Source: Desulfobacterium sp.
GTDB lineage: Bacteria; Desulfobacterota; Desulfobacteria; Desulfobacterales; Desulfobacteraceae
DNA length: 64,000 nt
Direction of reading: 5' to 3'
Assembly (NCBI GenBank): GCA_030145245.1
Contig: JAQYWC010000076.1
Span: forward strand, 1-64,000
Made by a program: the position numbers and the translations under genes. Numbering within the stretch: position 1 is the first letter of the stretch; every line of letters begins with the position of its first letter. The notes beneath the pieces were generated by a model. It made no database searches, was not told the origin of the DNA, and saw nothing but the letters and a program-made list of their open reading frames with translations. Shown in pieces: positions 13,136 to 35,508 of this stretch.

Positions 13136-13269
13136 GAAAATTCTCCTATAGATTGCTGAAGGTTGGTTAAAAATTATTTGGTACCAGATACGGGTCACAA
13201 TAGCAATCAAAGGTTTTTTTTCTTGACACCACGTTTTTTGTCTGGTTTTGTCTCCTTAAAATTTAGGTA

Positions 13270-13435
13270 TTGCATGGTGCTTACAAGCTTAATAGGGAAC
13301 CCTGTGAAATTCAGGGACGGGCCCGCCGCTGTGATCGCAGACGAAAGCCGCACAGAACGTCACTGCCCCATAGGGGGTGGGAAGACGCGGCCAGTAGAAC
13401 GACGCGAAAGTCAGAAGACCTGCCTTGCAAAGGGA
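13270..13435 (+). promoter_or_regulatory. Cobalamin riboswitch
   Basis: Conserved B12-aptamer blocks occur in order: AATAGGGAACCCTGTGAAAT, then GGACGGGCCCGCCGCTGTGA, then CACTG, and finally the 3' block GTCAGAAGACCTGCC. Length and order match the AdoCbl/MeCbl riboswitch class. A terminator hairpin follows before the TonB receptor gene, so B12 should cause premature termination. A TTGACA at 13223-13228 might be a -35 element, but no good -10 box is visible. Confidence 0.95.
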
Positions 13436-13483
13436 TACGCTCCAAAGGACATGGAGCCCCAGGATCTTGCGGACCAAAAAGGG

Positions 13484-26764: not shown

Positions 26765-26852
26765 TTGCCCCACGGTAAAAGATGTTTGACAACAAGGGTC
26801 AAGTTCTGTACAAGAAATTTGGAATTACAATCCTGTCCGAAGGCAGGGGCAA
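26765..26852 (+). ncRNA. Unassigned structured leader, riboswitch-like
   Basis: The leader of the importer operon can fold into a closed multibranch shape: TTGCC (26765-26769) pairs with GGCAA (26848-26852). It encloses hairpins TTGAC/GTCAA (26786-26802), TTCT/AGAA (26804-26816) and CCTG/CAGG (26832-26847). A strong terminator follows 25 bases later. The aptamer-plus-terminator layout suggests ligand or metal sensing. It does not match the cobalamin, Moco, FMN, TPP or GEMM consensus as I know them. Confidence 0.5.
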
Positions 26853-26877
26853 AACGAGCAGTACACTATAACCAATC

Positions 26878-26932
26878 AAGCCACGAAGGCAGCACTCCCC
26901 ATAAGGGAGAGGCATGTCCCGTGGCTTTTTTT
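26878..26932 (+). terminator. Leader terminator before the FecBCD-type operon
   Basis: The outer stem AAGCCACG / CGTGGCTT and the inner stem CTCCC / GGGAG run into seven T residues, ending about 25 bases before the binding-protein ATG. Its position in the untranslated leader indicates attenuation control. Confidence 0.9.
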
Positions 26933-26957: not shown

Positions 26958-28091
26958 ATGGAGAAAAGACTCGTTGTAACCACATGGATGGCGGCGGCGC
27001 TGCTGCTGCTGATGATAATACCCTTTCCCGGATTTTGCGACCCCCTGCGAACCCTGACCGACTCCCTGGGCACCCGGGTGACCCTACCCCAACGGATCGA
27101 CCACACCATCGGGTCCGGGTCCGGCTGCCTGCGGATCATCACCTACCTTGGGGCCCAGGACAAAATTGTGGCCGTGGACGACATTGAAACACGGACAAAC
27201 CGGTTTGACTCAAGGCCCTATGCCCTGGCCAACCCCCAGTTTAAGGAATTTCCCATCTTCGGAGAGTTCAGGGGCCATGACCATCCCGAACGGATCGTAA
27301 GCCTTGATCCCCTTCCCCAGGTGATTCTCAAGACCTTCAGCACCATGGGGGTTGATCCCACCGAACTCCATCAAAAGACCGGCATTCCCGTGGTGACCAT
27401 TGAGTACGGCGACCTTGGGCACCAACGGCAGACCTTTTTCAAGAGCCTGGAAACCGCGGGCCAGACCCTTAACAAAGAAGAGAGGGCCCAGGCCATCATC
27501 GGTTTTTTCAAATCCCAGATCGCAGAACTCGAAAAGCGGACAGCCGGGGTGGCCAACCCGCCCACCTGCTTTGTGGGGGGGATCGCCTACAAGGGGCCCC
27601 ACGGTTTCCAGTCCACGGAACCGGGTTACCCGCCGTTTCAGTTCGTCAATGCCGTCAATGTGGCAGCCACGCCGGAAAGCATGGGCGGAAAGATGACCCG
27701 GAGCACCATCTCCAAGGAGAAGCTCATGGTGTGGGATCCGGACGTACTCTTCCTGGATCTTTCCACCCTGCAGATGGGGGACGCTGGAGGCGGACTTTCC
27801 GAACTTGCCACCGATCCCGCCTTTCAGGCCCTGACAGCCGTGCAACAGGGCCGCATCTTCGGGGTGCTGCCCTACAACTGGTACTCCCAGAACTTCGGCT
27901 CCATCCTTGCCAATGCCTGGTTCATCGGCAAGGTGCTCTACCCGGAACAGTTCACGGATGTAGATCCTGCCCAAAAGGCGGACGAGATCTACACCTTTCT
28001 GGTGGGGAGCCCCGTGTTCAGGGCCATGGACGCACGCTTCAACAACCTTGCTTTCAAGCGAATCGATCTCAACCAGAAACAAGAGGGGTAA
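26958..28091 (+). CDS. FecB/BtuF-type periplasmic binding protein
   Basis: This 377-residue exported binding protein has a signal peptide (KRLVVTTWMAAALLLLMII, cleavage near GFC) and a two-lobed Peripla_BP_2 fold: TDSLGTRVTLPQRIDHTIG, YLGAQDKIVAVDD and WDPDVLFLDLSTL. It captures a metal chelate, corrinoid or similar ligand for the ABC importer encoded next. The ATG at 26958 has CTGGAGG five bases upstream. Control probably acts through the leader RNA and terminator. The fmdE gene downstream hints at a metal or metallocofactor precursor. Confidence 0.92.
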   Translation: MEKRLVVTTWMAAALLLLMIIPFPGFCDPLRTLTDSLGTRVTLPQRIDHTIGSGSGCLRIITYLGAQDKIVAVDDIETRTNRFDSRPYALANPQFKEFPIFGEFRGHDHPERIVSLDPLPQVILKTFSTMGVDPTELHQKTGIPVVTIEYGDLGHQRQTFFKSLETAGQTLNKEERAQAIIGFFKSQIAELEKRTAGVANPPTCFVGGIAYKGPHGFQSTEPGYPPFQFVNAVNVAATPESMGGKMTRSTISKEKLMVWDPDVLFLDLSTLQMGDAGGGLSELATDPAFQALTAVQQGRIFGVLPYNWYSQNFGSILANAWFIGKVLYPEQFTDVDPAQKADEIYTFLVGSPVFRAMDARFNNLAFKRIDLNQKQEG

Positions 28092-28092
28092 C

Positions 28093-29163
28093 ATGCACTT
28101 TAACGACGGTGAAATCTCCACAGCCTACACAGCCTACATTGTCAGGAAAACCGGCTTTACCCTGGCCATGTCAGGGGGGCTTGCCATGATGCTCATCCTG
28201 GCCATCAGCCTCGGGGCCGTGCACATCCCGTTTACCGACGTGGTCAAGACCCTGGCCGGCGCAAGTGTCACCCGGCAGTTCGACATCATCGTGTGGAACA
28301 TCCGGCTGCCCCAGACCCTGACGGCCATTGTTGCCGGCGCAGGCCTTGCCGTGGCAGGTGCAGTGATGCAGTCGGTCCTGAAAAACCCCCTGGGCTCACC
28401 CTTAACCCTGGGCATCTCCCATGCGGCCGCATTTGGCGCGGCCCTTTCCGTCATGGTGATGGGATCCGGGAGCATGGCAAGCTCCCTGTCCGATGCCGTG
28501 ACCATCACCAACCCCTATATAACCACCTCGGCCGCCTTTCTCTTTTCCATGCTGGCCGCAGGCATCATCACCCTGGTGGCACGGATCAGGAACGCCTCCC
28601 CCGAGGTGATGGTGCTCACCGGGGTGGCCCTGGGGTCACTGTTCACGGCCGCCACCATGCTTCTCCAGTTCTTTGCCGACGATGTCCAACTGTCGGCCAT
28701 GGTGTTCTGGACCTTTGGGGACGTGGCACGGACCAGCTGGAAGGAGCTTAGTTTTCTCGCCATTGTGACCCTTGTGTCCCTGGTCTATTTCATGGCCAAT
28801 GCCTGGAACTACAATGCCACGGATACCGGGGACGAGACCGCCCGGGGAATCGGGGTCCGGGTGGAGCGGGTACGGCTTATGGGAATGATGATGGCCTCCC
28901 TGGTATCATCGGTGATCATCTCCTTTGTGGGCATCATCGGATTCGTGGGGCTTGTGGCCCCCCACATGGTCAGACGGCTCATTGGCGACGACCACCGCTT
29001 TCTTCTGCCCGCCACCGCAGCCACCGGCGGGTTGCTGCTGCTGGCATCGGACACCGTGGCACGGCTTGTCCTCTCCCCCCACATCCTTCCGGTATCGGTG
29101 CTCACCTCGTTTCTGGGCGCCCCGATGTTCATCTACCTCATCATAAAAGGATACAGACGATGA
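28093..29163 (+). CDS. FecCD-family ABC permease
   Basis: This is an inner-membrane permease of about 356 residues with ten or so helices. FecCD motifs are present: VWNIRLPQTLTAIVAGAGLAVAG, NPLGSPLTLGISHAAAFGA, and GFVGLVAPHMVRRLIGDDHR for the coupling helix. It starts two bases after the binding-protein stop, with AGAGGGG upstream, and its end overlaps the ATPase start. Its type is shared by siderophore, haem and B12 importers, so the substrate cannot be fixed from this gene alone. Confidence 0.95.
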   Translation: MHFNDGEISTAYTAYIVRKTGFTLAMSGGLAMMLILAISLGAVHIPFTDVVKTLAGASVTRQFDIIVWNIRLPQTLTAIVAGAGLAVAGAVMQSVLKNPLGSPLTLGISHAAAFGAALSVMVMGSGSMASSLSDAVTITNPYITTSAAFLFSMLAAGIITLVARIRNASPEVMVLTGVALGSLFTAATMLLQFFADDVQLSAMVFWTFGDVARTSWKELSFLAIVTLVSLVYFMANAWNYNATDTGDETARGIGVRVERVRLMGMMMASLVSSVIISFVGIIGFVGLVAPHMVRRLIGDDHRFLLPATAATGGLLLLASDTVARLVLSPHILPVSVLTSFLGAPMFIYLIIKGYRR

Positions 29164-29936
29164 TACTCAAGATCGACGACCTGGCCTTTGGCTACAGCAG
29201 CCGACCGACCCTTGACAAGATCAGCTTCACGGTAAAAAGGGGAGAGATCACCGTCATCCTCGGCCCCAACGGCGTGGGCAAGACCACCCTCTTAAAGTGC
29301 ATCAACGCCATCCTCAAGCCCTCCAAAGGCGATGTCCTGGTGGACGGCGACGCCATCGCCTCCCTTGACACCCTGGCCATTGCAAAACGGATCGGGTATG
29401 TGGCCCAGTACAGCGAGCCCTCCCGGGTCACGGCCTTTGACGCCATCCTCATGGGACGGCGGCCCCACATCCGGTGGCGGGTCTCGGACAAGGACCTGAA
29501 GATCGTAGATTCGGCCATCAAACGGCTGGGACTGGACCACCTGGCATTAAAATATGTGGACCAGATGAGCGGCGGAGAGCTCCAGAAGATCTCCCTGGCA
29601 CGGGCCCTGGTCCAGGAGACGGACCTGCTGCTCCTGGACGAGCCCACCAGCAGCCTGGACCTGAAAAACCAGACCGAGATCCTGGCGCTGATCAAACGGG
29701 TGGTCAAGGAACACAGGGTCGCAGGGGTCATGACCATGCACGATCTCAACAGTGCATTGCGCTATGGCGACAACTATCTGTTTCTTAAGAACGGCACCAT
29801 CTACGGCGCCGGAAAAGTGGATGAGATCTCCCCTGCCATGGTGGAGTCGGTCTATGGCATCGGTGTTGAGATCCTTCGCCACAACGGCTATCCAGTGATA
29901 ATACCCAAGGACTGGCCCATTGAACGGGCCGCCTGA
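29160..29936 (+). CDS. FecE/BtuD-type ABC ATPase
   Basis: This 258-residue ATPase carries Walker A GPNGVGKTTLL, signature SGGELQKISLARAL, Walker B LLLDEPTSSLD and a switch His in TMHDLNSAL. It powers the adjacent permease and overlaps it by ATGA. All three importer genes are tightly packed, consistent with one transcript. A dispersed repeat and then fmdE follow. Confidence 0.96.
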   Translation: MILKIDDLAFGYSSRPTLDKISFTVKRGEITVILGPNGVGKTTLLKCINAILKPSKGDVLVDGDAIASLDTLAIAKRIGYVAQYSEPSRVTAFDAILMGRRPHIRWRVSDKDLKIVDSAIKRLGLDHLALKYVDQMSGGELQKISLARALVQETDLLLLDEPTSSLDLKNQTEILALIKRVVKEHRVAGVMTMHDLNSALRYGDNYLFLKNGTIYGAGKVDEISPAMVESVYGIGVEILRHNGYPVIIPKDWPIERAA

Positions 29937-30045: not shown

Positions 30046-30663
30046 ATGGAATGTACCATTGATCAGAACCTCATCGACAAAACCATTGAGTTCCACGGCC
30101 ATTCTTGCCCGGGACTTGCCATTGGCATCCGCCTTTCCGAACTGGCCATGGAGCGGCTGGACATCACCAACTGCGCCTCACCCCTGTGCGTGGCTGAGAC
30201 CGACATGTGCGGGCTGGATGCCGTGCAGTTCATCACGGACTGCACCTATGGCAAGGGCAACCTGGTGCACAAGGATTACGGCAAATCCGCCTTCACATTT
30301 TTTGACAGAACCAGGGACAAGGGATTCCGGGCCGTGTTCATCAAGAAGCTCCAGAAGAGCGACCAGGAGAGGGAACAGATGCTCACCCTCATGGAAAAGG
30401 TGATGAAGGGGGAGGCGAGCCAGGAGGAGAACCAGAGATTCCAGGATCAGCGGGCCCAATCGATCCAGAGCATCATGGATGCCGATCTTGACGAGCTCTT
30501 CACGGTGGAGGAGATCGCCAAGGCCCCTGTCAGGCCGGCCAAGATACTTGCCAGCATCGAGTGCCAGGCCTGCAACGAGATGGTCATGGAGTCACGGATA
30601 CGAAGGTTTGCAGGCAAAAACCTCTGCATTCCCTGCTTCATGGAACATGAACAGAAAATCTAA
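30046..30663 (+). CDS. FmdE-family protein with C-terminal zinc ribbon
   Basis: The 205-residue protein has the FmdE core, with FHGHSCPGLAIGIRL and AETDMCGLDAVQ (about 16-110) holding conserved His and Cys ligands. The tail has a CQAC ... CIPC zinc ribbon (about 170-200). FmdE was named from a formylmethanofuran dehydrogenase operon, but many relatives sit beside metal or cofactor transporters. The adjacent FecBCD importer suggests a role in handling its ligand. The start at 30046 has AGAGGAG upstream. The 3' end lies in a 78-base duplication that also copies the end of the convergent hydrolase. Confidence 0.88.
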   Translation: MECTIDQNLIDKTIEFHGHSCPGLAIGIRLSELAMERLDITNCASPLCVAETDMCGLDAVQFITDCTYGKGNLVHKDYGKSAFTFFDRTRDKGFRAVFIKKLQKSDQEREQMLTLMEKVMKGEASQEENQRFQDQRAQSIQSIMDADLDELFTVEEIAKAPVRPAKILASIECQACNEMVMESRIRRFAGKNLCIPCFMEHEQKI

Positions 30664-35187: not shown

Positions 35188-35356
35188 GGAAAACTCCCTT
35201 TTTATTATAAAACATTACCATAATATCAGGGGAGATGATGGGGGTGGGACTGCACGCCAGCACCCGGAGAATACAGGAACGGGAATGACCCGCAAAACAT
35301 CCTGTACCGGCACAAGGTCGCAGCAGCTCCCAACAAGGAAATGCAAACAGCCTGTT

Positions 35357-35494
<138 letters not shown>

Positions 35495-35508
35495 AATTCA
35501 CGAAGATG

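Follow-up and report, generated by a model that had tools for sequence, protein, structure and literature searches.

A conserved tandem-hairpin leader upstream of a FecBCD/FmdE operon of Desulfobacterium, a probable attenuation switch for nickel uptake

How is an operon controlled that encodes a FecBCD-type importer together with an FmdE protein and is preceded by a leader of unfamiliar sequence? Such an operon lies in the window analyzed here, i.e., the whole stretch of 64,000 nucleotides from the 6.4-Mb genome of a Desulfobacterium species (G000, contig C21). A sequence-only reading of this DNA had proposed an orphan riboswitch-like leader, composed of an 88-base aptamer closed by TTGCC/GGCAA and a strong terminator, with a metal or metallocofactor as plausible ligand. 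The terminator is present as described, ending at position 26932, 25 bases before the ATG of the binding-protein gene at 26958. The features of the locus are as follows:

26786..26791, + strand: predicted -35 box TTGACA (from the sequence; relatives have TTGACA before P1)
26809..26814, + strand: predicted -10 box TACAAG, 17-base spacer (from the sequence only)
26831..26848, + strand: hairpin P1, 7 bp, loop CGAA (folds in the cut and the full leader; covariation)
26849..26877, + strand: linker between P1 and P2, varying in length among relatives (comparison in alignment A4)
26880..26890, + strand: hairpin P2, GCC-ACGAA-GGC, competing with the terminator (fold of RNA cut after P2; covariation of the outer pair)
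26878..26932, + strand: intrinsic terminator with P2 within its 5' arm and a U-tract at 26926-26932 (folding, covariation)
26958..28091, + strand: periplasmic binding protein, Peripla_BP_2, FecB-like (Pfam)
28093..29163, + strand: FecCD permease (Pfam)
29160..29936, + strand: ABC ATPase (Pfam)
30046..30663, + strand: FmdE with a C-terminal C4 zinc finger, the candidate factor (Pfam FmdE and zf-dskA_traR)

A search of Rfam, as proposed earlier, bore out that the leader matches none of its families: there was no match at gathering scores, and the two hits that appeared up to an E-value of 10, TEG147 on the terminator (E 0.49) and HLE in the upstream part (E 1.4), remained far below theirs. Likewise, 14 loci carrying copies in other taxa yielded no Rfam matches at gathering scores. 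The window also holds leaders of known class, as indicated by a Cobalamin riboswitch at 13258-13441 (+) and an FMN riboswitch at 35353-35501 (-), both above the Rfam gathering score.

The proposed aptamer had to be given up. Its closing sequences do exist (TTGCC at 26765-26769, GGCAA at 26848-26852), but the 88-base unit folds with -22.6 kcal/mol at an unremarkable z-score of -1.09, which was equaled or surpassed by 21 of 200 shuffles, and both its boundary and its closing stem run across the predicted promoter. Transcription is predicted from the sequence to start near 26822, so that the bulk of the 88-base region would remain untranscribed from that promoter. A TTGACA box (up to 2 mismatches) is located 5' of P1 in all 27 related loci matching a strict P1 pattern, at a distance of 39-41 nt in 22 of them and of 47 nt in the window. 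The segment 26750-26935, which comprises P1 and the terminator, reaches a z-score of -3.12, with none of 200 shuffles as stable. The claim of an orphan leader therefore holds for a non-Rfam leader with a terminator as expression platform and a connection to metal uptake, while the extent and closing stem of its aptamer do not.

A comparison of related operons had also been suggested, and in these the leader is retained throughout. Homologues of the binding protein (E <= 1e-30) occur in 35 of the 86 family genomes, and each of the 30 loci read, out of 36 matches listed, has the terminator 5' arm AAGCCACGAAGGC upstream of the gene with no more than 3 mismatches; the strict P1 pattern was present in 27 of the 30, the remaining three being one base off. 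A pattern for the terminator only matched 40 places in 28 of the 86 family genomes, while the reversed control pattern gave no matches; because these places extend beyond the binding-protein operon, a regulon could be recognized. Alignment A2 combines 34 leaders, 22 from the 30 binding-protein loci and 12 from the 20 copies of a further set. Left out were L029, L031, L034, L036, L037, L043, L047, and L048 (redundant or with long linkers), L088 (a near-copy of L086), L093 (long linker), and L089, L090, L091, L097, L100, and L101, in which P1 is unclear at the usual distance. A2 served as seed of a covariance model (R1), and because its 12 rows from the further set had been picked for showing the hairpin, R1 was applied to collect more copies, giving alignment A4 with 89 rows, which are fitted to the model and hence biased to its structure, a few of them being probably false or antisense.

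All five core pairs of P1 show two-sided changes in A2, and in A4 the double changes per core pair amount to 44, 55, 33, 47, and 7, with 97.5% of the cells paired. The covariation value for P1 plus terminator in A4 is 0.496, compared to 0.213 in shuffles (none of 500 reaching it), with slid controls not exceeding 0.116. The two hairpins share the motif C-(A)NGAA-G: the loop matches (A)NGAA in 79 of the 89 A4 rows for P1 (10 misfits) and in 89 of 89 for P2, although these counts are partly selected for rows from the collection scan, whose search pattern demanded GAAG and CCACGAAGG. An (A)NGAA hairpin with a stem of 5 bp or more is located upstream in 42 of 62 copies from fetched loci, the other 20 having no 5-bp hairpin, and in none of 10 other hairpin-plus-T sites of the same loci, which represent a small control. 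In the further set, such a hairpin occurs at 25-75 nt in 13 of 20 copies, compared to 0.7% of mononucleotide shuffles. The outer pair of P2, whose 3' base lies outside of the terminator stem, was GC in 57, AU in 20, GU in 9, and otherwise composed in 1 of 87 A4 rows. In alignment A3 (112 rows), the search form of P2 was found in 95 rows, with GC in 73, AT in 15, GT in 6, GA in 1, and A facing C in none of them (Fisher 6e-13, uncorrected for phylogeny); the other 17 rows missed it, some for a long linker and some for being antisense. With compensatory changes in the P1 and P2 helices across homologues, and covariation of P1 plus terminator above shuffle and slide controls, the leader is, at the level of sequence comparison, a structured cis-regulatory RNA.

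The element is widespread in the family. A broader model (R2) detects it in 68 of the 86 family genomes, among them 39 of the 42 of good quality, with 11 copies in the window's genome. R1 matches 40 of 297 genomes sampled across the phylum, and R2 matches 32 of 299 genomes of the phylum to which the Sporomusa genome belongs; both numbers are unvetted, the latter including real and doubtful cases among those inspected, and several inspected matches were on the wrong strand or without P2. A scan of the collection returned at least 117 stretches, and among the 80 listed, of which 50 loci were taken further, many show P1 and related genes. About nine of the 80 were rejected by eye as chance matches (L219, L224, L229, L231, L242, L248, L273, L278, and L281). 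The listed matches beyond Desulfobacterota include Sporomusa acidovorans, Sedimentibacter saalensis, a Clostridium sp., Desulfotruncus alcoholivorax, Nitrospirae, and Thermodesulfovibrionales, and as far as these predicted copies tell, the element also occurs in Bacillota and Nitrospirota. The Anaerovorax genome (locus L244) gave no R2 match up to an E-value of 0.1.

These data bear on the reading that the element is just a conserved terminator hairpin or a DNA operator, i.e., a dispersed repeat or protein-DNA site that involves no RNA switch. The nearly invariant 5' arm of the terminator would agree with this, as would some model matches that are antisense to the same hairpin. However, the P1 stems diverge widely yet keep pairing, the pair specific for P2 covaries beyond the terminator stem, and copies precede related uptake genes in different phyla, which makes such a site a very improbable explanation.

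Folding predictions with ViennaRNA indicate how the parts may work together. When the window RNA is cut after P2, both hairpins fold, with closing-pair probabilities of 0.90 for P1 and 0.98 for P2, whereas the full leader forms P1 and the terminator. The same is seen in the relatives: among 88 cut A4 leaders the closing pair exceeds 0.5 for P1 in 73 and for P2 in 79, and the terminator exceeds 0.5 in all 89 full leaders. P2 and the terminator are mutually exclusive as predicted structures, and because full leaders fold the terminator and cut leaders P2, the terminator should represent the default state and P2 would need to be held. The direction of the switch is deduced from this, the operon being presumably off unless a factor turns it on. 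A third (A)NGAA hairpin was observed at the terminator apex in 25 of 89 A4 copies (e.g., L222, L232, and L265), compared to 3 with a reversed-motif and none with a complement control; it is absent from the window copy and was left out of the model.

The leader is therefore proposed to be a factor-dependent transcription-attenuation/antitermination switch for nickel (possibly nickel/cobalt) uptake, which we consider probable. The leader RNA would open with P1, followed by the variable linker and P2, both hairpins exposing the C-(A)NGAA-G loop. By default, the terminator would displace P2 and keep the operon off. A trans-acting factor would contact both GAA loops, the most likely candidate being a dimeric protein that binds RNA and is active at nickel scarcity, and P2 held by this factor would block the terminator and allow read-through by the polymerase. 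While sequence data provide the parts of the leader and their covariation, show P2 and terminator to exclude each other, and outline the regulon as well as the occurrence of the element, we infer that the switch is in use, that it is on at low nickel, that a protein serves as factor, and that nickel is the signal.

As a variant without any protein, the leader may be a true riboswitch, in which the two GAA loops dock onto each other and themselves form the binding site for a small ligand or metal ion, thereby stabilizing P2 much as in guanidine-II. The guanidine-II layout likewise has two similar hairpins joined by a linker of variable length, and the nascent RNA is predicted to fold both hairpins unaided, but there are very few fixed bases per hairpin, and if stabilization of P2 turned the genes on, binding of nickel would promote the import of nickel. 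We regard this variant as possible, if doubtful. Considering that both hairpins are very small and have few fixed bases, that the linker varies, and that the second hairpin lies inside the terminator arm, a protein-bound antiterminator accounts for the leader no less well than an aptamer for a ligand.

A view on known systems shows several relatives in design. Guanidine-II (mini-ykkC) RNAs have the loop consensus ACGR and control exporters, whereas the leader described here carries (A)NGAA loops in front of importer genes and gave no match to their Rfam covariance model (up to E 10 for the leader, at gathering scores for the 14 loci). The NiCo (czcD) riboswitch shares the theme of nickel and cobalt, but has a multi-stem shape and sits at efflux genes; neither the leader nor the 14 loci matched it in Rfam. 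A similar layout is offered by the ANTAR leaders (EutV, NasR, AmiR), which, according to the part of the source considered, also contain two small stem-loops whose loops are read, the second being replaceable by an intrinsic terminator, with antitermination as the on state (PMC3369931). Tandem hairpins of which the second excludes a terminator are found in the leader as well. ANTAR loops are described in the same part of that source as hexanucleotides that begin with A and have G as their fourth base, with eut linkers of 5-12 nt (PMC3369931); the (A)NGAA loops do not follow this rule, and the A4 spacing from the P1 core to the terminator arm is 16 to 56 nt (median 36), so the leader was rejected as an ANTAR target on its loop sequence. 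We rate the element as a tandem-hairpin attenuation leader of a new class, presumably acting like ANTAR targets and guanidine-II but outside of both, because its loops depart from the ANTAR definition and the guanidine-II model remained unmatched. By title and start of abstract, no description of such an element came up in the literature searched, a library with few subscription journals and no bioRxiv preprints. The motif is small and amenable to in vitro work.

The signal is suggested by the genes behind the element. Of 89 A4 rows, 9 lacked a usable frame and 4 were removed because they looked like second-strand or surplus matches on inspection by eye; one of the four (L202, 10386-10489) has FmdE behind it and may be a real copy. 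Pfam searches on the remaining 76 first genes gave DUF4198 (18), TonB-receptor plug (16), Peripla_BP_2 (7), FecCD (4), CbiM (4), methyltransferases (4), SBP_bac_5 (3), ExbB (3), ECF components (3), DUF3450 (2), and others, while genes at other copies were named by eye from their first residues. Methyltransferases and DUF3450 (4 and 2 of 76) are neither nickel- nor cobalt-type, but most of what lies downstream is annotated from sequence as uptake genes of the nickel/cobalt type. The element thereby unites orphan TonB receptors, FecBCD importers, and methyltransferase, DUF3842, DUF4198, and FmdE genes in one putative regulon.

NikK of nikKMLQO is taken here to be a DUF4198 protein. Under the element, DUF4198 genes lead CbiM/CbiQ-like operons, an arrangement resembling the nikKMLQO layout as given in the portion of the source considered (PMC545781). 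Nickel is deduced from this operon layout, because matches to NikA- and NikB-like proteins all stayed below the NCBIfam cut-offs and the downstream CbiM genes carry cobalt-transporter names. The same antitermination switch could respond to cobalt, another metal, or a metallophore instead, as the CbiM names and the combination of TonB receptors, FecBCD, and methyltransferases would suggest. However, DUF4198 tops the tally in the nikKMLQO-like layout (PMC545781, same portion), and the window contains a separate cobalamin riboswitch, so that a signal other than nickel appears unlikely to us. Overall, the predicted regulon speaks for nickel, and possibly cobalt as well, over molybdenum, tungsten, or corrinoids. 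The connection to a metal expected by the sequence-only reading is consistent with the metal uptake genes downstream.

NikR, which governs nikKMLQO-type operons of other delta-proteobacteria according to the part of the source considered (PMC545781), is unlike the leader a DNA-binding repressor. A search for its domain PF08753, positive in 5 of 14 known genomes as control, detected it in 6 of the 86 family genomes and gave no match in that of the window. In the section of the source considered, NikR is reported from less than half of the organisms with NikABCDE, and other regulation is inferred there (PMC2667541). The element represents a concrete candidate for the missing control of nickel uptake where NikR is absent.

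To our knowledge, FmdE is widespread but has no known role in these bacteria. Being a dimeric metal-binding zinc-finger protein that is often encoded just behind the leader, it is a candidate for the factor. It follows within about 110 nt behind model-matched copies at L351, L385, L399, and L205, and also behind a weak match (E 0.064) at L343; at L351 (genome G415) FmdE is the first and a FecCD-like protein the second gene, mirroring the contents of the window operon. All 14 FmdE proteins inspected contain HGHxC, and 13 have the zinc-finger cysteines by eye, the remaining one being truncated at the locus end. Structures of relatives have been solved (2gvi, 2glz, and 3d00). Based on element matches that are partly unvetted, FmdE is found in 26 of 32 element genomes compared to 82 of 267 others in the phylum of the Sporomusa genome (Fisher 4e-8), and in 35 (counted by eye) of 40 compared to 187 of 257 in the window's phylum (borderline, p 0.05). 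Six of the 32 element genomes are without an FmdE match, and the copies in two of these (G454 and G499) look real, which argues against FmdE as the sole factor. The co-occurrence thus supports an association, albeit an imperfect one. FmdE as nickel sensor and RNA-binding antiterminator in one, with the metal-free dimer holding both GAA-loop hairpins so that P2 does not give way to the terminator and nickel uptake is turned on, and with nickel at FHGHxC freeing the RNA, is put forward tentatively; it may also be merely a member of the regulon. If true, the model would constitute a new protein-RNA system of metal homeostasis across Desulfobacterota, Bacillota, and Nitrospirota.

Some further features recur at the copies. 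DUF3842 is encoded as first gene in L189, L241, L256, L268, and L359 and as second in L094 and L098, confirmed by Pfam at L256 only and assigned by the DGxGGGIG motif elsewhere. A model built from 5 sequences (mean pLDDT 70.4) is Rossmann-like at moderate confidence, and an RNA-binding role of DUF3842 is unsupported, the best PDB matches being of dehydrogenase type with TM of about 0.4-0.5. At L172, L184, L188, L193, L094, L098, and L222, the genes following the element include methyltransferase-like ones that adjoin FecBCD importers or TonB receptors and are perhaps involved in metallophore synthesis. In L043 and L047, the linker has grown by insertions to 104 and 78 nt, respectively, in L043 with a long inverted repeat, while P1, P2, and the terminator are retained. 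Finally, words of the types GCAG, CAGT, and AGTA are enriched in the A4 linkers compared to mononucleotide shuffles, with GCAG present in 13 linkers against 3.0 expected.
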